Shown: positions 3,318 through 23,284, numbered from the stretch's first letter. The stretch: 38,835 bases of DNA from Vulcanimicrobiota bacterium (GCA_003136655.1 PLFC01000060.1:16437-55271); one strand, 5' to 3'. Numbers and translations are program-made. The notes: generated by a model from the sequence alone, not told the origin.

Positions 3318-5150
3318 ATGCACATCGGACGCGCGCTCTCTGCCACCGCGCTGGCTTTCTCGTTGAGCGCGAGCGTACGGGCATCGGCTGAGGTCGTGAT
3401 GCCGCCGGCTTCCGCCGGCGCAACCGTGCACACCATTGCCGGAAACGGAACCGCGGGCAACGTCGACGGCGTGCGCGACAAAGCCGAATTCATGTTCCCG
3501 GTTGCGGTGGGCTACGACCCGAGCGACGGGGCGATCTACGTCGTCGATTCGGCGGCCCAACGGATTCGCAAGATCGCGAGCGACGGCGCCGTGTCCACGG
3601 TGGCCGGCTCCGGGCCGCCGGCCACCTCGGGCTTAGAAGTGCAAGGCGGCTTTGCCGATGGTCCGGCGGCGAGCGCGCGCTTCAACTACCCGATGTCCAT
3701 CGCGGTCGCGCCGGGAGGCACGCTCTACGTCGCCGATTCGATCAACCGCTGCATTCGCAAGATCGCGGGCGGCATCGTCTCGACGTATGCGGGCACGTGC
3801 GGCATGCAGGGCGCAAAGGACGGAACGACGGCAACGGCCACCTTCAACGATCCGCGAGGCCTCACGCTCGCCCGCGACGGCACGCTCTTCGTGGCCGACT
3901 TCGGCGTCGGCATCCGCTCGATCGCCGCGAACGGCGCCGTCGAGACGATGAAAATTCCGACGCAGTGGGTGCGCCAGATCTCGACGCTCGCGATTTACGA
4001 GAGCGGCGCGGTGCGCATGCTGTACGCCGCGGGCAATGCGGGCTTCTTGCGCTACAACCTCGTCTTCAAGCGCCTCGACGGCGTGCGCTCCGCGTCGGAT
4101 GTCGAACGGCTGACCCCATTCGGCATCCTGCCCTTGAGCGAACAGACGGTGCTCGTCTCGAGCCCGCGCTGGCACGGCATCTACTTTCTGCACTTCGCCG
4201 GAACGTGGCGTCGCGTCGCGGGTCAGGGCGGCCAGGATCCGGCGTTACTCGGCGGCTTCGCCGACGGCGCTCCGGCCGACGCAAAGTTTTACGCGCCGAT
4301 GGGTTTGACCGCGGGGCCGAACGGCGAAGCGATCGTGGCCGATGCGGGCAACCGCAGGATCCGCAGCGTCCCGACCGTCGACCCGCGCTGGACGGCCAAC
4401 TACGGGTCGGGCACGCCGCCCAAGGAGCCGGACGTCTATCACGCCTTCTTCGTGAGCAACTCGTTTGCGTTCGAGAACGTGGTGTGGGCAGATTCCATTC
4501 CGGGCCTCATCGAGAAACGCATCAATGCCGAGCGCGCGAAGCTGGGCCTGAGCAAACCGCTGAAGTTCGACGTGGGTTATTTCACCGCCGTGCCGCTCGC
4601 GCCCCAGGCACAGTACATCGGCGAATCGCTCGCCGACGGCACGATCGATCTGGTGATCTGGAATCTCAACCCGCACTTCTTCCACGATAGCACGGGCGAT
4701 TGGGAAGTCGCGTTGCCGCAATTCACTCCCGAAGCTCGAGCCGGCTGGAAGGCCGCGGTCGATGCCGCCTACGCAAAGCTGAAGGCGAGCAACACCAAGC
4801 TGATCCTCGTCGACGAGCCGCTCGGACAACATCTGGGGCCCGGGGAATCTTTTGCCTATCGCGACTATCTGTCGTACGACAAATCGGTGCGTCAAGGCTA
4901 CGACAAGTTCGGACAGTTGCCGCGCAAGCCCGGCTACGGCTACGACACCAACGTCGAGATGGAACGGTTCCTGGGCTCGCTCGGCATTCCGTACATCCCC
5001 ACGCTGGAGCGATTCCTCGAGTACGAACGCGGCGCGCACTCACCGTTGTATTCGAATTACGACTTCCATTTCACGCCCGCCGGGGACGCGTTCTTGGCCG
5101 ACATCATCTCGACGTATCTCGAAAAGACGCGCCCGTGGAACGACCGCTGA
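3318..5150 (+). CDS. Exported NHL beta-propeller / SGNH-hydrolase-like fusion, paralogue 1
   Basis: This is a 610-residue protein with a Sec signal peptide (hydrophobic stretch at about residues 5-20, cleavage likely after 'VRASA'). Residues about 35-350 hold NHL-type propeller blades, each with a 'YVVDSAAQRIRKI' or 'YVADSINRCIRKI' type strand followed by 'STVAG'. Residues about 365-610 read as a degenerate SGNH domain: the nucleophile region 'VSNSF' (Ser382), a block III-like 'VIWNLNP', and a C-terminal block 'YDFHFTPAG' (His584, with Asp at -2 and Tyr at the usual Asp -3 position). It is first of three tandem paralogues and overlaps the next by one base (TGATG). SGNH proteins in polysaccharide loci often transfer or remove acyl groups. 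A role in polysaccharide modification is inference; the substrate is unknown. Confidence 0.8.
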   Translation: MHIGRALSATALAFSLSASVRASAEVVMPPASAGATVHTIAGNGTAGNVDGVRDKAEFMFPVAVGYDPSDGAIYVVDSAAQRIRKIASDGAVSTVAGSGPPATSGLEVQGGFADGPAASARFNYPMSIAVAPGGTLYVADSINRCIRKIAGGIVSTYAGTCGMQGAKDGTTATATFNDPRGLTLARDGTLFVADFGVGIRSIAANGAVETMKIPTQWVRQISTLAIYESGAVRMLYAAGNAGFLRYNLVFKRLDGVRSASDVERLTPFGILPLSEQTVLVSSPRWHGIYFLHFAGTWRRVAGQGGQDPALLGGFADGAPADAKFYAPMGLTAGPNGEAIVADAGNRRIRSVPTVDPRWTANYGSGTPPKEPDVYHAFFVSNSFAFENVVWADSIPGLIEKRINAERAKLGLSKPLKFDVGYFTAVPLAPQAQYIGESLADGTIDLVIWNLNPHFFHDSTGDWEVALPQFTPEARAGWKAAVDAAYAKLKASNTKLILVDEPLGQHLGPGESFAYRDYLSYDKSVRQGYDKFGQLPRKPGYGYDTNVEMERFLGSLGIPYIPTLERFLEYERGAHSPLYSNYDFHFTPAGDAFLADIISTYLEKTRPWNDR

Positions 5151-6958
5151 TGCGCGCCCTCGGCCTCGTTTTCTGCGCGACGCTCGGAGCGCAGGCGGCC
5201 GTTGCCGGCGTCGCATCGGCCGCCCCGTTTGCGGCCACGATGCAGCCCGACGCGCCGGTGCGCACGCTGGCCGGCAACGGCATCGCGGGCAACCTCGACG
5301 GCCCGCGCGGTCAAGCCGAATTCATGTTCCCGGTTGCGGTCGCGGTGGATAAGCGCACCGGCGACATCGTCGTCGCCGACCCGGGCGGCCAGCGCATCCG
5401 CAAGATCGCACCCGACGGCCGCGTCTCGACGATAGCGGGCGGCGGCGAGCCGCTGCCCTCGGGCCTCGAGGTCGCGGGCGGTTATCTCGACGGCCCCGCG
5501 CTGAGCGCGCGTTTCAACCGGCCCACGGGCGTGGCCATCGGCGGCGACGGCGCGATTTACGTCGCCGACTCCTTCAACCATTGCATCCGCAAGATCGCCG
5601 GCGGCGTGGTCAGTACGTTTGCGGGCGATCCGAAAAACGCGGGCGGGTCCGACGGCGAACTCAAGGACGCAACCTTCCTCGAACCTCGCTCGATTGCGAT
5701 CGCTTCCGACGGCACCATCTACGTTGCCGATTACACCGTCGGCGTGCGCGTGATCACGCCCGCCGGCCTCGTCTGGTCGCTCGGCTTCACCGGCTCCGAC
5801 CTCACCGGCCTCTCGCTCTGGGAGGGCCCCGACTCCTCGGTCTTGTTTGCCGCGTCGAAGTTTTCGGTGGCGTACTACAGCTTCAAGGATCACGGCAGCA
5901 ACGGGATGTTCTCTACGGCGCAACGCAGCTCGGGCATGGGCCCGACGGGCATCGTGGGCCTCGGACCGGACTCGGCCGCAATCTCGAGCGTCACCTGGCA
6001 AGGCGTCTTCTTCGCCAAATTCCCCGGCTCGTGGAGCCCCTACAACGGCTTCTCGCGCCTGATGGTCGGACCCGACGAAAAGGACTGGCAGCAGAAGGGC
6101 GGCTTCGCCGACGGCCCGGCGGCGGCGGCGCAAGTTTACGATCCGATGGGCATGGCGCTCGACGCGCACGGCGACATCGTCTTGGCCGACGCGGGCAACC
6201 GCCGCATCCGGCTGTTGCCCGCGCCGGATGCGCGCTGGGCCTACACGCGCGACGATACACTGCCGCCGAAGCCGGCCGGCGTCTACCGCATCGCGATCGT
6301 CGGCGATTACGGGATGTTCTACCATTCGATGGCCGACGATTCGATCGCCGCCGACTTGCAACGCCGGCTCGAGGCGGATCGTGCGAAGAACGGCTTGGGC
6401 AATCGCCGCGTCGACGTCGTGACGATCAGTCTGAATTCGGGCGACGTGACCCAGCAAGCCGAATACATTCTGGATAAGCTCGAGAAGGGCAGCGTCGACG
6501 CGGTCGTGTGGTCGTTGGGGCCGAGCGCCTACGACGGCTATCCGCACGGCGTCGGCCGGTATTTTGCGGACGAACCGTTCGTCGACGGCATCGTGAAGCA
6601 CACGGCTGCGGCGCTCCAAGCGGCGGGAACGGCCCTGGTCGTCACGGTGCGGCCGGTGGCCTCGCAAGTCGCCCTCGACGAATCGACCTACACCACCTAT
6701 CTCGGTCCGGGCGGCGGCATCGACGGGGGCCTCCAGAGCTTCTTCGAGGCCGAGCGTTACGTCGACGGTTTGGGCGTGCCGGCGGTGCCGTTCGCCCAAC
6801 GGCTAGCCGACGCCGAGCGCGGGCCGCACGTGCCCTTCTTCGATACCGACTACGGGCAATTCACGCCGGCCGGTAACGAACTCTTTGCGCAAGCGCTCGC
6901 CGACGGCCTGACCGGCCTGCATCCCTGGTCGAACGCGCCCGCACCGGCGGCTCGCTGA
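5150..6958 (+). CDS. Exported NHL beta-propeller / SGNH-like fusion, paralogue 2 (probable pseudoenzyme)
   Basis: This 602-residue protein has a signal peptide ('LGLVFCATLGAQAAVAG', cleavage near 'ASA'). The ATG at 5150 shares one base with the upstream stop. Four or more NHL-type blades ('YVADSFNHCIRKI', 'YVADYTVGVRVI', 'LADAGNRRIRLL') cover residues about 35-365. The SGNH-like domain begins 'RIAIVGDYG', where block I should be GDS: Tyr387 replaces the nucleophile Ser. At the other end, 'DYGQFTPAG' has Asp567 but Gln570 in place of the catalytic His. Two of three catalytic residues are therefore missing while the fold-defining context is kept. It probably binds rather than hydrolyses, or partners one of the flanking paralogues. 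That reading is inference. Confidence 0.8.
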   Translation: MRALGLVFCATLGAQAAVAGVASAAPFAATMQPDAPVRTLAGNGIAGNLDGPRGQAEFMFPVAVAVDKRTGDIVVADPGGQRIRKIAPDGRVSTIAGGGEPLPSGLEVAGGYLDGPALSARFNRPTGVAIGGDGAIYVADSFNHCIRKIAGGVVSTFAGDPKNAGGSDGELKDATFLEPRSIAIASDGTIYVADYTVGVRVITPAGLVWSLGFTGSDLTGLSLWEGPDSSVLFAASKFSVAYYSFKDHGSNGMFSTAQRSSGMGPTGIVGLGPDSAAISSVTWQGVFFAKFPGSWSPYNGFSRLMVGPDEKDWQQKGGFADGPAAAAQVYDPMGMALDAHGDIVLADAGNRRIRLLPAPDARWAYTRDDTLPPKPAGVYRIAIVGDYGMFYHSMADDSIAADLQRRLEADRAKNGLGNRRVDVVTISLNSGDVTQQAEYILDKLEKGSVDAVVWSLGPSAYDGYPHGVGRYFADEPFVDGIVKHTAAALQAAGTALVVTVRPVASQVALDESTYTTYLGPGGGIDGGLQSFFEAERYVDGLGVPAVPFAQRLADAERGPHVPFFDTDYGQFTPAGNELFAQALADGLTGLHPWSNAPAPAAR

Positions 6959-6985
6959 AGATTTCGGCAGCCTTTTCGCTCACTC

Positions 6986-6997
6986 GCACTGCAGTGC
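6986..6997. promoter_or_regulatory. 12-bp perfect palindrome upstream of the third NHL gene
   Basis: GCACTGCAGTGC is a perfect palindrome in the 92-bp gap between the second and third NHL-SGNH genes, 54 bases before the chosen ATG at 7051. It could be an operator half-site pair for a dimeric regulator. It could also be chance in GC-rich DNA; I saw no second copy near another promoter. Confidence 0.2.
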
Positions 6998-7050
6998 AGG
7001 CCAAAACCCGCGGAGATGACCCGGCTGAAATGGACGCGAAGCGCTACGGT

Positions 7051-8889
7051 ATGAAGGCCCGAACCCTGTCCGTTCGTCTGGTTTGCCTGTTGTCGGCGAT
7101 CGCTTTTTCCCTTGCCGGCTGTGCCCAGCACGGCTCGGACGACGCGACCGCAGGCACGATCGTAGCAGCCGGACCGACGGCTGCCCCGAGCGGACCCGAC
7201 GAGGTCAAAACGGTCGCAGGCTCGGGATACCCGGGCATCGCCGACGGGCCGGCGAGTTCGGCGACGTTCCTGATGCCGTCGGGGCTGGCCCGCGGCAAGG
7301 ACGGTACGCTCTACATCGCCGATGAGGCCGCGCAACGCATCCGGACGCTCTCACCCGGGGGCAGGGTCGGTACGCTCGCCGGGTCGGGTCCGGTGGAACC
7401 GCCCGGGCTCTCGGTCAAGGGCGGCTTTCTCGACGGGCCCGCCGGCTCGGCACGCTTCAACCGCCCCCAGGGCCTCGCCGTGGGTCCGGACGGCTCGCTG
7501 TATGTGGCCGACGAGCGCAACGCTTGCGTGCGCAGGATCGCGCACAACCAGGTAACGACCGTGGCCGGGGTCTGCGATCGGCGCGGCAACGAGGCCGGGC
7601 CCGAGGCGGGCCGGCTCAGCGACCCGCGCGCCTTGGCCTTCGACGATCGCGGCAACCTCTACATTGCCGACTACGGCGTGGGCGTCTTGCGGCTGGGTCG
7701 CGACGGCCACCTCAACCGCGTCAAATTGACGACCGGCGAGAAACAGATCCTGGGGCTTTCGGTCGTGACCGACCCGGCGGGCGGCTCGACGCTCATCGCC
7801 TCGTCGCCGTCGATTTTCATCATTCAGCCGCTCAGCGGCGGCGTCGGCGCGGTCAGCAACATCCGTAACTACGCTGAGGGAAACCGGCCCTTCGGCGATC
7901 CGTACCAATTCGTCCCGCGCAACGCGCGCGAGTTCTTCTTCAGCGACATCCGCTCCGATACGGTGCGTTATCTGCGCCTGCCGGCGCCGCCCTTCGTCAC
8001 CACGGTCTTCACGCGCACGATTGCCGGGGGAACGGCCGAACGCCCCATCGACAACGCCGGTTTCCGCGACGGCACGCGCGAGGATTCGCGCTTCAACGCG
8101 CCCTCAGGCCTCGCACTCGACGGCAATACGCTCTACGTGGCCGACACCGGGAACCGGCGTATCCGGGCCATCGGTCTGCCGGCCACCCGGCTTTCCGAGA
8201 CGGGTCTGGGCACCGGCATCAAGCCCGACTCGAACCACTACGAGATCGCCTACGTCGGCGCGTCGTGGGCCTTTTGGGACAGCCTGGGCGAGGATTCGTT
8301 CTGCGCGCACCTCGAAAAGTACATGAACGAGTCGCACAAATTCTCCAAGCCCGTCCGCTGTCACCCGATCCGGATCGACGCGGCCGGCCTGCCCCAGATG
8401 GAAGACTACATCAAGAACGTGCTCGCCGACGAACGCTTCGACGAGATCCTGATCAACATGACGCCGGGCGCGGCCAACGCGATCTTCCCGAACAACGCCC
8501 CACCGTCGGCGGCGGCCGGAGCGGCGGGCCTCCGCGCGCACATCGAGTCGCTGCTCAAGGTGCTCGCGCCCGAACACACCAAGCTCGCCATCGCCTGGAC
8601 GTTCGAACCCGACGACGTGTCGAACACCGAGAATCTGTACGAACGTCAGCAGAGCTCCAACGGCCATGCGCTGCCGGGCGAATTGATCAACTCGCTCCAA
8701 GATTTCAAGCTGGAGTACGACGGCGCGAAGGCTCTGCCGATCACCGAGTACGACGAATACGCCGACGCCATCGCGCACGCGAAGTCGTCGGACCCCGCGC
8801 CGCTCTACGGAACCGACGACAGTCACATGTCCGCGCGCGGCGAAGACTTCCTGGCCAAGCGCGTAGCCCGCGCGCTGAGCGGCTCGTAA
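7051..8889 (+). CDS. NHL beta-propeller / SGNH-like lipoprotein, paralogue 3
   Basis: The protein is 612 residues. I chose the ATG at 7051 because it gives a clean lipoprotein signal: a basic n-region, a hydrophobic core and the lipobox 'SLAGC'. An ATG at 7030 would add seven residues. The mature protein starts with a Ser/Ala/Gly/Pro-rich linker, then NHL blades ('YIADEAAQRIRTL', 'YVADERNACVRRI', 'YIADYGVGVLRL', 'YVADTGNRRIRAI') to about residue 385. The SGNH-like part has 'YVGASW' (Ser405), block III-like 'LINMTPG' and 'DDSHMSARG' (Asp589, His592), so this paralogue alone keeps a full Ser/Asp/His set with the DxxH spacing. It would sit on a membrane facing the periplasm or the surface. Modification of the locus polysaccharide is inferred from context. 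Confidence 0.8.
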   Translation: MKARTLSVRLVCLLSAIAFSLAGCAQHGSDDATAGTIVAAGPTAAPSGPDEVKTVAGSGYPGIADGPASSATFLMPSGLARGKDGTLYIADEAAQRIRTLSPGGRVGTLAGSGPVEPPGLSVKGGFLDGPAGSARFNRPQGLAVGPDGSLYVADERNACVRRIAHNQVTTVAGVCDRRGNEAGPEAGRLSDPRALAFDDRGNLYIADYGVGVLRLGRDGHLNRVKLTTGEKQILGLSVVTDPAGGSTLIASSPSIFIIQPLSGGVGAVSNIRNYAEGNRPFGDPYQFVPRNAREFFFSDIRSDTVRYLRLPAPPFVTTVFTRTIAGGTAERPIDNAGFRDGTREDSRFNAPSGLALDGNTLYVADTGNRRIRAIGLPATRLSETGLGTGIKPDSNHYEIAYVGASWAFWDSLGEDSFCAHLEKYMNESHKFSKPVRCHPIRIDAAGLPQMEDYIKNVLADERFDEILINMTPGAANAIFPNNAPPSAAAGAAGLRAHIESLLKVLAPEHTKLAIAWTFEPDDVSNTENLYERQQSSNGHALPGELINSLQDFKLEYDGAKALPITEYDEYADAIAHAKSSDPAPLYGTDDSHMSARGEDFLAKRVARALSGS

Positions 8890-8913: not shown

Positions 8914-11802
8914 ATGCTCGCACTCTTGCTGCAATGCGCGATCTTCGCGCTCTTTGCGTTCGTGGGTTATGGGATCGCGGTCGCGCTCGTACCCGAACGC
9001 GACTCGCTGCGCAACGCGCTGCTCGCCCCCGTGCTCGGCGCCGCGGCCTTCACGATCCCGGCGGTATTGCTCAACCACCTCGGCTTACCGGTGAACGCAT
9101 TCGCCTGGCCGCTCGCGATCGTGCTGAGCGCCTTCGCCGGGTATTCGCTCTACGTGCGGCGCGCAAAGTCCCGCGTGCCGTGGCGCGCGCTCGCTCCGTT
9201 CTTGATCTTGCTCCCGTTCGCGTTCGCGCTGAGCTGCCGTCCGGCGCTCGAGTTCGGCACCAATTGGCTGAGCTTCAGCAACGAAGACATGATCAATTAC
9301 GCATCCGACGCGCAGCGTCTGCAGAGCTATGGCTTCTACGCGCAGCCCGCCGCGCTCGACGTGGCTGCGGGCCAACGCCTGAGCGAGGAAGGCTTCTGGT
9401 TCCAGGGCGTGATGGGCAACGAGCGGGTCGGCGTCGACACGCTGCTTTCGGTCGTGTCCTCGCTGGCCGGAATGCGCCCGTTCAACATCTTCATGCCGCT
9501 CATCGGCGCCGGCTATTTCATGCTGATCTGGGCGACCGCGGCGCTGGGCTTGGCGCGCGAGTTACGCGTGCGGCTCGCGCTGTGCATAGGGATCGCGATG
9601 GCGCTGTCGTCGTTGACCACGCTGGGCATGCTCTCGCAACTGCTGGGACAAATCTTCGGCCTGTCGGGCTGCGTCGGCGCGATCGCGCTCCTGGGCGAAT
9701 CCGACTCCGAAGCGGTGCGCGAGAATCCCGCCGGCCAAATCGGACTTCGCGTGCTCATCTCGGCGTTCGTGGTGGCGGCCTATCCGGAACTCTTTCCGTT
9801 CGTGCTCCTGGCCATGGTGCTCGAACATTTCGTCGTGCCCGTGCTGGAGCGGCGCAAGCCCGACTACATCGCAGGTTCGGCGGCGCTCGTCTCCTGCGGC
9901 CTCGCGTTCCTCGTGTTGTGGAACTACGGCCGCACGATGGCCCAGGTGATCGTCGACCGTTTCCACTCGGCCACCCTGCCCACGCACGACGTACTCTTCC
10001 CCTACTTTTTGCTGCCCAGCGGCATCGCCAATCTGTGGGGACTGGTCAAGGTCGCCGACTATCCGGCCGATCCGTACATGTCGATCGCGATCGTCGTGGG
10101 CCTCGTGCTGCTCGTGCTCCAAATCGTCGCGGTGCTGATCGCGGCGCGACGCATTCACCCGGCGGCGTTGACGGCTCTCGTGATGCTCTTGCTCGGCGGA
10201 TTCTTCTTCGTGCACCGCGACGATTTCGCACTCTTCAAAACGGCCATGTACATCCAGCCGTTCTTCGTCGCCAGCTTGGCGCTGGGCACCTACGGACTCT
10301 TGCGCATCCTGGGCCGGGAGCGCCCCGAGTGGGCGGCGGGTGCGGTGGCCGTGGCCTTCGCGCTGGTCGGCATCGGCGCGCAACAAGGGTACGTCGAATT
10401 CAGTCGCTCGGCGCCCGACGCCGACCGGTACACGTTCTCGCAACTGCCGATGGCCTCGCCGCGCAAGCTGCTCCAGGATCTCGACGCGGCCGCAAAGACC
10501 GTGGGCACCGATCCCGTGGCGATCGACGCATACGAACCCGAGTACGCGAAGCTCGCCGAGGCGTATTTCTCGGCGGCGCCGTTGACGACGCTTTCAGACG
10601 ATTTCCTCAATCGCTTCCGCAGCGACGGTCCCATCTTCGGCGTGCCCGATGCCGAGACCGCGCACGAAGACGCGCAGATCGACGTGCAAGAGTTCCGCAA
10701 TCGCGAACAGCTAGCGACGCTGGCCTTTCCGCCGATCGTCGCCGCCGACGGCTCGCCCAACCGTTTCCGCGAGCCGTGGATGCCCGCGGGCAAACCGAAA
10801 TGGCTGCTCGAGATGGGCGCCGACGCCTCGATCCTCAACCGCTCGGGCGACGCGGAACCCGACAAACTGATCCAGTTGCGCCCCTGGAACAGCGTGCGCA
10901 ATCACCTCGTCTCGTTGCAGAGCGAACTCTTCGGGCTCGACGGCTGGAGCGGCGCGTGGCAAGACGGCTCGCCGGGCGGCAGCCCGACGCTGTACCGTCC
11001 CGAACGCGACTTCTTCAAATCCGGGGTGGGCACGTTCGTGGGCCTGGGGCGGTATCAGGCCTTCGAAGCGGTCAATCCGAGCGGTCCCGTGCGGCTGGTG
11101 TTCTGGGCTTCGGCGACGCTCAAGAGCGAGGGCCGCAACAAGTTGCCGCCGGCTACGATTTACGCGGCGGAAAGCGTGCCGCTCGCAGGCGTCGGCAGCG
11201 GTTCGGAACGACTGGTGTCGGAAGCCTTCGAACCGGCCGACGTCCACGGGATTTCGGTCATCGGTTTGGATCTAGGCGAAAACGGCGTGCACTTCCGCAA
11301 GCCGCTCTCGGGGCTCATGAACTGGTTCAATCGCGACATCGCGATCGATCCGCGCGAGCTGGTCGTCTTCGGCCGCGACATCAGCTTGATTTCCGACGAG
11401 GACTTCCGCAGTTGGGAGCCGCCGTCTTGGATCACCGACCTCCCGACGGCGCTCGAGAATCCGCAGTTGGTCTTCTCGGGCATCTACGAAGACGGCGGTT
11501 GGGTCTCCGACGCGAGCGAACTCAACCTGCGCTCGCAGCCGGGCGCCAAACGCTTGCAGATCCAAGGGGAGATCCCGCGCCTCGGCTCGGACTCGTTCAA
11601 GACGACCGCCACCGTCTCGGTCGACGGGACGCCCGTCATCGTGCAGAAACTCGGCGTCGGCGGATTTTCGCTCGAGACGAGCGCGCCGAGCGTTCCGGGC
11701 AACCACAAGATCGGCATCACATTCTCGCCGGCGCAACACTTCCAAGCGCCCGACGGCCGCATCGTCGGCGCGCGCATCGACCAAATCGGCTTCCCGCCGT
11801 AA
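8914..11802 (+). CDS. Large polytopic membrane protein, GT-C-like, with long C-terminal extracytoplasmic region
   Basis: This is a 962-residue protein. Residues 1 to about 470 contain roughly a dozen hydrophobic segments, starting at the first residue. A loop after the first few segments carries 'SNEDMINYASD', an acidic pair like the DE/ED motif in the first periplasmic loop of GT-C glycosyltransferases. Residues about 480-962 have no obvious membrane segment and look soluble with beta-rich stretches near the end. I do not recognise a named family. GT-C enzymes use lipid-linked sugars on the outer face of the inner membrane, which would fit a gene between the NHL-SGNH proteins and the ligase. 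Its stop shares a base with the next ATG (TAATG), so it is co-translated with the glycosidase-like gene. Confidence 0.75.
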   Translation: MLALLLQCAIFALFAFVGYGIAVALVPERDSLRNALLAPVLGAAAFTIPAVLLNHLGLPVNAFAWPLAIVLSAFAGYSLYVRRAKSRVPWRALAPFLILLPFAFALSCRPALEFGTNWLSFSNEDMINYASDAQRLQSYGFYAQPAALDVAAGQRLSEEGFWFQGVMGNERVGVDTLLSVVSSLAGMRPFNIFMPLIGAGYFMLIWATAALGLARELRVRLALCIGIAMALSSLTTLGMLSQLLGQIFGLSGCVGAIALLGESDSEAVRENPAGQIGLRVLISAFVVAAYPELFPFVLLAMVLEHFVVPVLERRKPDYIAGSAALVSCGLAFLVLWNYGRTMAQVIVDRFHSATLPTHDVLFPYFLLPSGIANLWGLVKVADYPADPYMSIAIVVGLVLLVLQIVAVLIAARRIHPAALTALVMLLLGGFFFVHRDDFALFKTAMYIQPFFVASLALGTYGLLRILGRERPEWAAGAVAVAFALVGIGAQQGYVEFSRSAPDADRYTFSQLPMASPRKLLQDLDAAAKTVGTDPVAIDAYEPEYAKLAEAYFSAAPLTTLSDDFLNRFRSDGPIFGVPDAETAHEDAQIDVQEFRNREQLATLAFPPIVAADGSPNRFREPWMPAGKPKWLLEMGADASILNRSGDAEPDKLIQLRPWNSVRNHLVSLQSELFGLDGWSGAWQDGSPGGSPTLYRPERDFFKSGVGTFVGLGRYQAFEAVNPSGPVRLVFWASATLKSEGRNKLPPATIYAAESVPLAGVGSGSERLVSEAFEPADVHGISVIGLDLGENGVHFRKPLSGLMNWFNRDIAIDPRELVVFGRDISLISDEDFRSWEPPSWITDLPTALENPQLVFSGIYEDGGWVSDASELNLRSQPGAKRLQIQGEIPRLGSDSFKTTATVSVDGTPVIVQKLGVGGFSLETSAPSVPGNHKIGITFSPAQHFQAPDGRIVGARIDQIGFPP

Positions 11803-14232: not shown

Positions 14233-14745
14233 ATGATCGTAGAGTCTGAGGCCCTGCAGACCCGGATCGCCGAACTCGAGGCGACCCTCAAGCAGCGCGA
14301 CGCCGCGCAACAAACCCAAACGGCGGTCATCGCCGACCTCGAAGCCGTCGTGGCGGAACGTCAACGCATCATCGACGAACTCTCCGCCTCCAATCGCCGC
14401 CTCCAAGACGCGTGCGAAGAACGCCTCGCGCTCATCGTGAAGCAGCAGCGCACGATCGCGGAACTGCAGCGCGACCTGCAGGCCTCGAGCGCCTTCCCGG
14501 GGATCGTCAAACTCCAGGAAGAGAATCAAGCCAAGCTCGACGATCAGCTCGCGGCCAACGCACGGCTGCAGACGGTGGCAGACGAACGCGCGGCGCTGAT
14601 CGAATCGCAAGCCCAGTCGCTGGCCATGATGGCCGAAGAGTGCAATCAGCGCGATGAGGAAATAGCGCGCCTCCATGCGACCGCCCTCGAACGTCTGGCG
14701 GTCATCGAGGCGCTCAACGCCGCTCTGGAACGGCTTCCGCGCTAA
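14233..14745 (+). CDS. Coiled-coil protein with 21-residue periodicity
   Basis: This 170-residue protein is almost entirely predicted coiled coil, rich in Glu, Ala, Gln, Leu and Arg, with no signal peptide or membrane segment. A motif of the form 'ERxxxIxxL' recurs; Arg22, Arg43 and Arg64 are exactly 21 apart, and Arg119 and Arg140 again 21 apart. A break with 'SSAFPG' at residues 85-90 divides two halves. It starts 11 bases after the ligase stop and closes that operon. A paralogue-like protein lies at 22661-23284. No catalytic function is visible; a scaffold or length-measuring role is inference. Confidence 0.75.
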   Translation: MIVESEALQTRIAELEATLKQRDAAQQTQTAVIADLEAVVAERQRIIDELSASNRRLQDACEERLALIVKQQRTIAELQRDLQASSAFPGIVKLQEENQAKLDDQLAANARLQTVADERAALIESQAQSLAMMAEECNQRDEEIARLHATALERLAVIEALNAALERLPR

Positions 14746-14926: not shown

Positions 14927-15745
14927 ATGATCACCGACATCGTAACGGGCAACGACGTGGCGTTGGGAGCCGGATGGGACCGGCTCGAAACGTATCGCGG
15001 CGAAAGCTTCCGTTGGGTGAACAACGACGCAGTCTTGTACGTCGCCACCCTCAGACGGTTCGAGTACCAAGTGCAAGTACAAGTCGAACCAGGACCCGGC
15101 GTGGGTCTTCGCCCCTTCACGCTCAAGGCCGTCGAAGACGGCAAGCCGCTGGCCGACGTTCCGGTCAAGGGACGTCAGCAGGTTTCGTTCACGATCCCGG
15201 CAGGCGACCCGAAAGTGCACGCGATCACGCTCCGTACCAATGAGGGGGGCAAGCCCGCGCCCAACGATCCTCGAGTGCTGAACTTTCGCATATTCAAGGT
15301 GGTGGTCAGCGCGCTCCCCGGCGACGTTATTCCGCCCAACGCCGGCTTCCGGCTCGGGACCGGCTGGTACCCGCTGGAATCCTTCGGCGGTGAGACCTTC
15401 CGCTGGGTCAACAACGACGCGATGATCGAAGTGACGGGCACCCCGGCGGGCCCGCTCGAACTCGAACTCGAGCCCGGCCCGGGCGTCGAGCAAAAGGCCT
15501 TCGACTTGACCGTCTTCGACGGCGCCGGCGAGCAGCTGGAGAAGGTCTCGGTCAAGACCCGTCAGCGCGTGAAGATCGCGGTCCCGCCCGGGGCGCGTCC
15601 GCCCAGTGCCGTCCGCCTCCATGTGGAAGGCGGCGGCAAGACCACCTCGCAAGATGCACGGGTGATGAACTTCCGCGTCTTCGAACACGTCCCGGGCACC
15701 ACCGTCGCGAGCGCCGAGCAGACCCTTGCGGGAGCCGCGAAGTGA
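14927..15745 (+). CDS. Cytosolic protein with two tandem FRWVNNDA domains
   Basis: This 272-residue protein has no signal peptide and consists of two copies of a roughly 115-residue domain, at about residues 11-125 and 140-257. Each copy runs GxGW...E, then (S/T)FRWVNNDA, then a strand pair ending in PGPG, a second set of strands, GG(G)K, and ends D(P/A)RVxNFR(I/V)F. The alternating hydrophobic pattern suggests a beta sandwich. The same domain occurs twice in the exported protein at 19611-20486. I do not recognise a named family. The stop overlaps the isomerase start as GTGA, so it is co-translated with sugar-phosphate enzymes. A carbohydrate- or NDP-sugar-binding role is an inference from context. 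Confidence 0.75.
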   Translation: MITDIVTGNDVALGAGWDRLETYRGESFRWVNNDAVLYVATLRRFEYQVQVQVEPGPGVGLRPFTLKAVEDGKPLADVPVKGRQQVSFTIPAGDPKVHAITLRTNEGGKPAPNDPRVLNFRIFKVVVSALPGDVIPPNAGFRLGTGWYPLESFGGETFRWVNNDAMIEVTGTPAGPLELELEPGPGVEQKAFDLTVFDGAGEQLEKVSVKTRQRVKIAVPPGARPPSAVRLHVEGGGKTTSQDARVMNFRVFEHVPGTTVASAEQTLAGAAK

Positions 15746-19610: not shown

Positions 19611-20486
19611 ATGCGAAGTTTTTGGTTTAGACTCGTCGCCCTATCGGCGTGGGCGCTCGTGACCGTGGCGCCGGTCGCCGCAGCGCCCAGCGACATCGTC
19701 TCGCCCGGCAGCGGCCTGACGCTCGGTACGGGATGGTACCTGCACGAGACCGCCGCTGGAAACAGCTTCCGCTGGGTCGCGAACAACGCGCAAATCGTCG
19801 TTAACCGGCCGATCGGTTCTGTAAAGAAAATCGCAATCGTCGCCGAAGCGGGGCCGGGTCTGGGCCAGCCCAAGATGACGGTGCACGTTCTGGATCGCGC
19901 CGGCAAGGAAGTCGCGAGCGGCGTCTTCGACGGCAAACAGCGCGTGCGCTTCGATTTGCCGGTGTCGCCCGGACAAGATACGTCCTTTACGTTGCGCGTC
20001 GACGGCGGCGGCAAGAAGGCGCCGCGCGATCCTCGCACGCTGAACTTCCGCGTCTTCAGCATCGACGACGCGACGAGCGACGCGGCGATCGGCGCGGGCC
20101 ATCCCGACATCGCGGGGCCCGGCATCACCATCGCCGACAATTGGTATCCGCTCGAAGAGTTCAACGGCGCCACGTTTCGCTGGGTCAACAACGACGCGCA
20201 GTTCGAGGTGAAGGCCGATCAGTCGGGCAACCGGCGCCTCAAACTTCTCGTCGCGCCGGGACCCGGTTTACAGAAACCGACGAGCTTCGCCATCTCCCTG
20301 CGCGACGCTTCGGGTCACGAGATCCAAAAGGCCGCCGTTCGCGGCCTGAGCACCGTGTACTTGAGCCTGCCGCTCGCGGCCGGCTCCAATAAGTTCTCGC
20401 TGCACGTCGACGGCGGCGGCAAGTCCGGCATCCACGGCGACAGCAGAACGCTCGATTTCCGGGTGTTCTCGCTGACGGTCGTTTAG
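19611..20486 (+). CDS. Exported protein with two tandem FRWVNNDA domains
   Basis: This 291-residue protein has a signal peptide ('FWFRLVALSAWALVTVAPVAA', cleavage near 'AAA') and two copies of the same roughly 115-residue domain as the protein at 14927-15745. Copy 1 has 'GTGWY', 'SFRWVANNA', 'GPGLG', 'VDGGGKK' and 'LNFRVFSI'. Copy 2 has 'NWYPLE', 'TFRWVNNDA', 'PGPGL', 'VDGGGK' and 'LDFRVFSL'. A GGAGG site 5 bases before the ATG at 19611 decides the start. The mature protein would lie in the periplasm or outside. It is divergent from the exporter operon. Its function is unknown; glycan binding after export is an inference. Confidence 0.75.
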   Translation: MRSFWFRLVALSAWALVTVAPVAAAPSDIVSPGSGLTLGTGWYLHETAAGNSFRWVANNAQIVVNRPIGSVKKIAIVAEAGPGLGQPKMTVHVLDRAGKEVASGVFDGKQRVRFDLPVSPGQDTSFTLRVDGGGKKAPRDPRTLNFRVFSIDDATSDAAIGAGHPDIAGPGITIADNWYPLEEFNGATFRWVNNDAQFEVKADQSGNRRLKLLVAPGPGLQKPTSFAISLRDASGHEIQKAAVRGLSTVYLSLPLAAGSNKFSLHVDGGGKSGIHGDSRTLDFRVFSLTVV

Positions 20487-21830: not shown

Positions 21831-22692
21831 GGAGGTAGCGGACGCGATGCCGGTTGATCACCAGGCCGAGGGCCAGGCTCGAAAGCACGTTTAGGCGGCC
21901 CCCGCGCGATTCCTGGAAGAAGTTGTCGCTCCGGTCGAACACGTGGTTGGAGTACGCGACGACCCAATCGTAGGGCACGTACCCGTAGTGCCGGCGGAGC
22001 ACCCTCATCGACTCCTCGTATGCGGCGCGCCGGCGTCCGAGCGTCTTATTGCCCGGGTGCATGCACGAAAACGCGATCTTCGAATCAAACTTCACCGGTG
22101 AAGCGGTTCGCGAAAGCCTGATCCACAGGTCGTAATCGAGCGCGTAGTTCAGCGCCGGATCGAAGCCGCCGGCCGCGCGGAACGCCTCCGCGCGGAAAAA
22201 CGCCGCGGGCTGGCACACGATGCAGCGCATGCCGAGCGAGATCGCGTCGTACGGCTCGACCGGATACGGCCCCAAACGCGAGCCGCCCTCATCGACGTGA
22301 TCGGCCTCGCCGTACACGAACGGAGCCGCCGGATTGCTCGCGAGCGTGGCGACTGCCGCGGAGATGGCGCCGGGAAGATACGCGTCGTCGGCGTTGATGA
22401 AGCCGAATATGTCGCCGCCGGCCGCGGCGAAGCCGGCGTTGAGCGCCTGCGCTTGGCTCGTGCCTTCGAGCACGATGGTCCGAATGCGGTCGCCGTAACT
22501 GCGCACGATCTCCATCGTGCCGTCGCGCGAGCCGCCGTCCACCACGATGTACTCGACGTTCGGATAGTCCTGGGCCAAGACGCTCTCGACCGCCCGCGCG
22601 ATGAACTGGACTCCGTCCAGGACCGGCGTGACGATGGTGACGCGCGGAGGCGACTGCGGACTATTTTCTGGCGCGGAGCCGCTCAATCTCAC
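21787..22692 (-). CDS. Family 2 glycosyltransferase
   Basis: This protein of about 301 residues is of GT2 type. It shows 'TIVTPVLDGVQFI', 'SVLAQDYPNVEYIVVDGGS', 'INADD' as the DxD-like metal site and 'ALDYDLWIRLS' as the ED-type motif. The first 200 residues closely resemble the neighbouring GT2, suggesting duplication, but this one lacks the added C-terminal beta domain. I chose GTG at 22692 (TTG at 22686 is possible); either overlaps the end of the coiled-coil gene by about 30 bp. Confidence 0.85.
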   Translation of the reverse strand: MRLSGSAPENSPQSPPRVTIVTPVLDGVQFIARAVESVLAQDYPNVEYIVVDGGSRDGTMEIVRSYGDRIRTIVLEGTSQAQALNAGFAAAGGDIFGFINADDAYLPGAISAAVATLASNPAAPFVYGEADHVDEGGSRLGPYPVEPYDAISLGMRCIVCQPAAFFRAEAFRAAGGFDPALNYALDYDLWIRLSRTASPVKFDSKIAFSCMHPGNKTLGRRRAAYEESMRVLRRHYGYVPYDWVVAYSNHVFDRSDNFFQESRGGRLNVLSSLALGLVINRHRVRYLRDWLAHRGFGINRS

Positions 22693-23284
22693 GGTCCTGG
22701 CGCTCGAGGACGTCCGACATGTCCGCCAGGACGACGGCGCGCTTCTCAGCTTCATCGCGCATCTGCGCGAGCGCCGTTTCGATTTGCTTCATGCCCGCGA
22801 GCCGCTCTTCGGCGACGCGCTTGAGGTCTTCGATGATCTCGGCGCGCTCGGCGAGTTCGCCGTCCTTGCGCGCAATGGCGGCACGCAACGAGGCAACTTC
22901 CGCGGTCGCCGCATCGAGCGCAGCCAACCGCTCGTCGGCGGCACTCTGCAACTGCGCCATGCGTTTTTCCGAGTCGGCGAGGGCGGTGCCGATACGCGCC
23001 TCGGCTTCCGCCGAATGGCGCTCGAGATTGCCGGCCAGCCGCTCGATGACGGCCAGCCGCTCCTCCGCCGCACCAACGGCGCGCTCGAGTTCGGCCTGCA
23101 ACTCTTCGATCACCGCCTGCCGCTCTTCCGCAATGCGCTGCAGGTCGTCGGCGACGGCTTTGCGCCGGTCGGCCTCGCCCGAAAGGCGATGCAAAGCCGT
23201 GCTCGTGATCTCGAGGAAGCGTCCGCGCTCCTCGGCGATCGCGCGCAGGTCGGCGATTTCCGTTTCGAGTTGATTCGTCAGCAT
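22661..23284 (-). CDS. Long coiled-coil protein with 21-residue repeats
   Basis: This 207-residue protein is nearly all coiled coil, with no signal peptide or membrane segment. A recurring '(A/D)EERxxxIxxL' motif places ER pairs at residues 19-20, 54-55, 75-76, 118-119 and 160-161, close to multiples of 21. It resembles the 170-residue protein at 14233-14745. It sits between the GT9 gene (2-bp gap) and a GT2 gene (overlap), so it is made together with the transferases. A scaffold or chain-length ruler for GTs, like the WbdD coiled coil, is an inference. The ATG at 23284 marks the beginning of the heptads. Confidence 0.75.
   Translation of the reverse strand: MLTNQLETEIADLRAIAEERGRFLEITSTALHRLSGEADRRKAVADDLQRIAEERQAVIEELQAELERAVGAAEERLAVIERLAGNLERHSAEAEARIGTALADSEKRMAQLQSAADERLAALDAATAEVASLRAAIARKDGELAERAEIIEDLKRVAEERLAGMKQIETALAQMRDEAEKRAVVLADMSDVLERQDREIERLRARK

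Follow-up and report, generated by a model that had tools for sequence, protein, structure and literature searches.

We analysed a stretch of 38,835 nucleotides (GCA_003136655.1 PLFC01000060.1:16437-55271; hereafter the window) from an uncultured soil bacterium of the phylum Vulcanimicrobiota/Eremiobacterota. Three tandem paralogues occupy positions 3318-8889 of its plus strand and encode exported proteins of 610, 602 and 612 residues, in which NHL repeats are followed by a domain of SGNH character that takes up the C-terminal 240 residues or so; we refer to them as NHL-SGNH proteins 1 to 3 (Table 1). Proteins 1 and 2 begin with Sec-like N-termini, and protein 3 is probably a lipoprotein, because a lipobox (LAGC) is found at its N-terminus; an alternative in-frame ATG at 7030 is possible for this protein. 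The start codon of protein 2 overlaps the stop codon of protein 1 (TGATG), and 24 bases separate protein 3 from the gene of a multi-spanning membrane protein of 962 residues, which had no match in a Pfam search. Because of this overlap and this short gap, the membrane protein is probably co-transcribed with the NHL-SGNH genes as one transcription unit.

The preliminary description of this DNA had placed the three genes in a polysaccharide locus, and the annotation bears this out. The window encodes a Wzy_C O-antigen ligase, an ABC-2 permease and its ATPase (an export pair), glycosyltransferases of the GT2, GT4 and GT9 families, a SIS-domain protein with a HAD phosphatase, a GHL15 protein and an NTP transferase. 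With these genes, the locus has the appearance of one for polysaccharide synthesis and export.

Table 1. Features of the NHL-SGNH genes and their downstream neighbour, in window coordinates.
Feature	Position	Strand	Remarks
NHL-SGNH protein 1	3318-5150	+	610 aa; Sec-type signal; active-site Ser and DxH present
NHL propeller of protein 1	3429-4364	+	residues ~38-349; Pfam NHL/TEN_NHL; propeller modelled in protein 3
Block I Ser, protein 1	4461-4463	+	residue 382; motif SNS
Block V DxH, protein 1	5061-5069	+	D582, H584
NHL-SGNH protein 2	5150-6958	+	602 aa; degenerate active site; paralogue of protein 1
Tyr replacing block I Ser, protein 2	6308-6310	+	residue 387
Gln replacing block V His, protein 2	6857-6859	+	residue 570
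NHL-SGNH protein 3	7051-8889	+	612 aa; lipobox LAGC; active-site residues kept; GASW clade
SGNH domain of protein 3	8167-8886	+	modelled alone, pLDDT 85
Block I Ser, protein 3	8263-8265	+	residue 405; motif GAS
Block V DxH, protein 3	8818-8826	+	D590, H592
Multi-spanning membrane protein	8914-11802	+	962 residues; directly downstream of protein 3, 24 bp gap

Domain structure

Pfam NHL repeats were detected in proteins 1, 2 and 3 (E = 7e-17, 4e-21 and 1e-23). The full-length AlphaFold model of protein 3 (pLDDT 86.5, pTM 0.86) folds residues 50-374, mostly at pLDDT >90, into a closed propeller with six blades, as counted from the predicted strands. The closest propellers by fold and sequence are those of Teneurin, NHLRC2 and SUPPRESSOR OF QUENCHING, which, unlike the window proteins, have no SGNH domain.

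The C-terminal domain had been called SGNH-like from short sequence blocks. Structure prediction, Foldseek and a sequence profile now agree on this assignment, and an unrelated fold was not seen. The AlphaFold model of the protein 3 domain alone (pTM 0.86) has the three-layer alpha/beta/alpha arrangement of SGNH/GDSL proteins; its best Foldseek matches were GDSL/SGNH esterases (4rsh, E = 8e-8, TM to target 0.74), and PatB (7tlv) was matched at 1.6e-5. When the profile of this domain from 30 relatives was compared with PDB sequences, AlgX (1.8e-6) and AlgJ (3.7e-5) were found. Twenty-two of the 30 relatives matched PF16822 (ALGX) at E <= 0.1 (best 2e-10), and 12 matched PF19040, an SGNH domain fused to AT3 acyltransferases; protein 2 scored 15.7 against PF16822, where the cut-off is 26.5, and proteins 1 and 3 were not among the PF16822 matches.

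In the aligned members the Ser comes first and the DxH lies near the end (S...DxH), which is the canonical order, whereas AlgX and AlgJ are circularly permuted (H-S-G-N; PMC4148444, PMC9487903). Because of this canonical, non-permuted order we do not assign them to the AlgX family, and we consider the NHL-SGNH proteins at most AlgX-like in working. For block III, an Asn after strand 3 (vvLxxN) is common and not uniformly kept: some GASW members, protein 3 among them, do not have it.

Active sites and degenerate copies

All three paralogues had been presented as NHL/SGNH fusions, and their reading frames, export signals, NHL repeats and SGNH fold hold for each, but protein 2 lacks the active-site Ser and His. 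With Tyr387 in place of the Ser and Gln570 in place of the His, it is SGNH-like by fold and not by active site. Across 46 near-complete family members, Ser and His were both kept in 39 and both lost in 7, with no case of a single loss (p = 2e-8 on the assumption of independent members, which paralogues are not). Since the two residues are lost only together, they mark one working active site. A maximum-likelihood tree resolves the losses as four independent events and places protein 2 as sister of protein 1 (support 100/99). The one comparable pair of dead orthologues has a dN/dS of 0.17, equal to the level of live pairs (0.14-0.18), so the dead copy of that pair is still under selection.

Copies and distribution

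The genome holds ten copies of the family: three in the window and seven on five other contigs (three in tandem on C78, and singles on C118, C73, C57 and C137), most of which adjoin housekeeping genes. Because several copies have such neighbours, the acceptor need not be the polymer of the window locus. Within the phylum, 20 of 149 genomes carry the family. A scan of the genome collection with protein 3 alone returned no relatives; an alignment scan returned full-length relatives only in records of Vulcanimicrobiota/Eremiobacterota. The alignment scan relied on a single peptide pattern taken from the NHL region, with the best 80 of 269 places retained, and could therefore miss fusions elsewhere.

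Two variants were seen among the copies. At one locus (L173; G107 C110), fragments of extra NHL-SGNH copies lie between intact ones and suggest decay or assembly breaks in an expanding family. At another (L041/L187; G033 C163), one NHL-SGNH protein is extended at its C-terminus by about 140 residues, which resemble separate small secreted proteins that adjoin other NHL-SGNH genes (L035 11304-11624, L165 6846-7184).

A partner module in relatives

In 18 of the 20 family genomes, about 10 kb or less separates a family gene from an MBOAT gene, an anchored SGNH gene, a gene for a small secreted protein that we call small157, or several of these. The module comprises a membrane microprotein, a membrane-anchored SGNH protein (TM-SGNH), an MBOAT, small157 and one to three NHL-SGNH genes, frequently in the operon order microprotein / TM-SGNH / MBOAT / small157 / NHL-SGNH. 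TM-SGNH has about 330 residues, the motifs GDSVLWGY...DNDHL and a weak match to DUF1574; the MBOAT found with microproteins has about 400 residues and retains the WHG His. A second module type contains an acyl carrier protein, an FkbH-like protein or AMP-ligase, and an MBOAT of 475 residues. The two exceptions to linkage are the window's own genome and G130, the relevant contigs of which are short.

Co-occurrence across the 149 phylum genomes follows the same pattern. Small157 is present in all 20 family genomes and in only two others (p = 7e-23), and a short MBOAT (hand count of frames <600 residues) in 19 of 20 versus 24 of 129 others (p = 3e-11); both p-values overstate the evidence because they ignore the shared ancestry of the genomes. 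One of the two genomes with small157 and no NHL-SGNH gene has the full core module (G015) and the other is 56% complete (G110). In G109, 95% complete, we found small157 and the SGNH stretch of the family and did not find an MBOAT. Small157 itself has no match among PDB sequences and a Pfam match only at chance level.

Two other candidate partners were rejected. AT3 (PF01757) as acyl donor partner occurs in 47 of 60 relatives and is therefore not discriminating; the long MBOAT (frames of 786-1079 residues) is common in genomes without the family and probably belongs to a separate pathway. A long-type MBOAT (870-residue frame; L142, G000 C84) is the second MBOAT of the window's own genome, and the last residues of a long-type relative in G033 are YVYFKF. 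In some genomes, two or three MBOAT modules of different type coexist (L076, L175, L163, and L160-L164 of G004), either with a carrier protein and FkbH-like protein or with a microprotein.

The preliminary description had also noted the lack of an MBOAT acyl donor. This is correct for the window and not for the organism: most relatives have an MBOAT adjoining the family genes, and in the window's own genome one lies on contig C34 (9.2 kb, L149). Gene calls with family-trained codon scores identified on this contig an RmlD-like gene, a microprotein ending in FIYTDF, a TM-SGNH (GDSVLWGYK...DNDHL), an MBOAT with the WHG His (PF03062, E = 8e-25), two small157 genes and an epimerase gene. None of the ten NHL-SGNH copies is linked to the C34 module, which counts against our reading, in which this module would serve the copies in the window.

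A shuttle motif at the C-terminus

The motif FXYXXF stands at the C-terminus of DltX or of other MBOATs, where its Tyr accepts the acyl group and then hands it over to the Ser of an SGNH protein (PMC12148441). The microproteins of the module end in FIYTDF or FFYGNF, with one variant FYYGPQF. The 400-residue MBOATs beside them have no FXYXXF of their own, and the 475-residue type ends in a relaxed form, [VIA]xYxxF. Among 10,645 stop-terminated ORFs in the loci, 18 have an F.Y..F ending (one with an extra residue), and all of them are a microprotein or an MBOAT. The ending played no part in how the module was defined, and it provides the strongest single test.

Discussion

Gene neighbourhoods and motifs suggest that the NHL-SGNH family works with an MBOAT-SGNH envelope acylation machine, and three known systems offer comparisons. 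The alginate system of Pseudomonas (AlgI-AlgJ-AlgF-AlgX) likewise has an MBOAT, an anchored SGNH protein, a small secreted protein, and a soluble SGNH protein with a second domain, which in AlgX binds glycan. AlgX also shares the block V DxH and is the best PDB sequence relative of the SGNH domain, but it has a carbohydrate-binding module where the NHL-SGNH proteins have a propeller. The alginate system further differs from ours, which has many NHL-SGNH paralogues and, in one module type, a separate shuttle microprotein; small157 has no Pfam or PDB relationship to AlgF.

The Dlt system (DltX-DltA-DltB-DltC-DltD) shares a microprotein with a C-terminal FXYXXF, an MBOAT without its own shuttle motif and an anchored SGNH protein; with the second module type it also shares an acyl carrier protein and, in some loci, an AMP-ligase. 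The NHL-SGNH proteins and small157 are additional to the Dlt set, and an FkbH-like protein replaces DltA in several loci. For a D-Ala supply of the DltA-DltC type, we found no linked carrier protein or AMP-ligase in the microprotein-type loci or on C34, and this phylum is not known for teichoic acids. PatA-PatB, which O-acetylates peptidoglycan, has the same logic of an MBOAT-SGNH pair, and PatB is among the Foldseek matches; however, PatA carries FXYXXF on its own C-terminus, and the pair has no propeller.

We consider it reasonably probable that the NHL-SGNH proteins act at the end of an MBOAT-SGNH system of envelope acylation, as its terminal acyltransferases (or editors). From the fold, active site, module and motif we infer acyl transfer, its direction, an acceptor and a role for small157 along the following lines. 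The short MBOAT would bring an acyl group through the inner membrane and load it onto the Tyr of the DltX-like microprotein or, in the second module type with its linked acyl carrier protein, onto the Tyr near its own C-terminus ([VIA]xYxxF). The anchored SGNH protein, DltD- or AlgJ-like in position, would receive the group next, and the periplasmic NHL-SGNH protein would pass it on to an exported glycan in the manner of AlgX in the alginate system, with the propeller as binding platform. Small157 would be a near-obligate partner, possibly an AlgF-like go-between, and copies without Ser and His could be binding or scaffold subunits. An argument by analogy runs the other way: the anchored SGNH protein, like DltD, could be the terminal transferase by itself. 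In alginate acetylation, AlgJ and AlgX act as successive SGNH proteins, and the anchored and the soluble one are both needed (PMC4148444). A more specific proposal, which we put forward tentatively and with more doubt than confidence, is a distinct machine in which a DltX-like shuttle microprotein from outside the Dlt pathway feeds the anchored SGNH protein; this in turn passes the acyl group to an expandable set of propeller-SGNH transferases, live ones and conserved dead ones, with small157 obligate and the propellers choosing the glycan.

The main rival to terminal acyl transfer reverses the chemistry: the NHL-SGNH proteins would be esterases that remove or edit acyl groups, and the MBOAT and anchored SGNH protein alone would acylate, like DltB and DltD. 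Esterases are the closest PDB folds, the anchored SGNH protein is intact and directly beside the MBOAT and microprotein, and the presence of small157 without NHL-SGNH in G015 and G110 suggests that the core may work without the family. We nevertheless judge this unlikely, as the co-occurrence with small157 and the operon position suggest a forward role, the alginate precedent requires both kinds of SGNH protein (PMC4148444), the block V DxH is that of AlgX and AlgJ, and the conservation of dead copies is easier to reconcile with scaffolding or binding than with hydrolysis.

Two further readings detach the family from acylation or from catalysis. That the NHL-SGNH proteins are stand-alone secreted esterases of polymer breakdown, with the MBOAT link a by-product of shared envelope loci, would suit the scattered copies of the window's genome, unlinked to the module; linkage in 18 of 20 genomes and the near-perfect co-occurrence with small157 of the same operons make it very improbable. 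We give a similarly slim chance to the propeller being the working part, as a surface lectin, receptor or adhesion platform, with the SGNH domain largely vestigial or structural. That the active site was lost four times independently, and that one dead pair has stayed under constraint, would agree with such a role, but Ser and His are both present in 39 of 46 copies and are lost only together.

The position of NHL-SGNH genes in a conserved membrane acylation operon of relatives suggests that their products act last in a route of surface-sugar decoration not yet described. As the preliminary description had suggested, no equivalent of the NHL-SGNH proteins was found in the literature searched: our search, in literature mostly from outside subscription journals, returned no mention of NHL repeats with SGNH or with MBOAT proteins, and a review of SGNH proteins does not mention the fusion (PMC9487903). 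Pathways other than Dlt were stated in 2025 to lack a DltX-like microprotein (PMC12148441); the operons described here, from a phylum of which few members are cultured, would be an exception to that rule. Up to ten propeller-SGNH proteins, conserved pseudoenzymes included, appear to share one acylation core, and the case makes acceptor choice by such acylation systems testable.

Two pairs of proteins encoded in the window were observed besides. Two stand-alone coiled-coil proteins with EERLAxI-type heptads lie within the polysaccharide locus (14233-14745 and 22661-23284). Two members of one family without a Pfam match, encoded on the plus strand at 14927-15745 and 19659-20486, share the motif LGxGWYPLExxxxxxFRWVxNDA; this family also adjoins NHL-SGNH and small157 genes in three other genomes (L153, L062 and L063) and may belong to the NHL-SGNH system.
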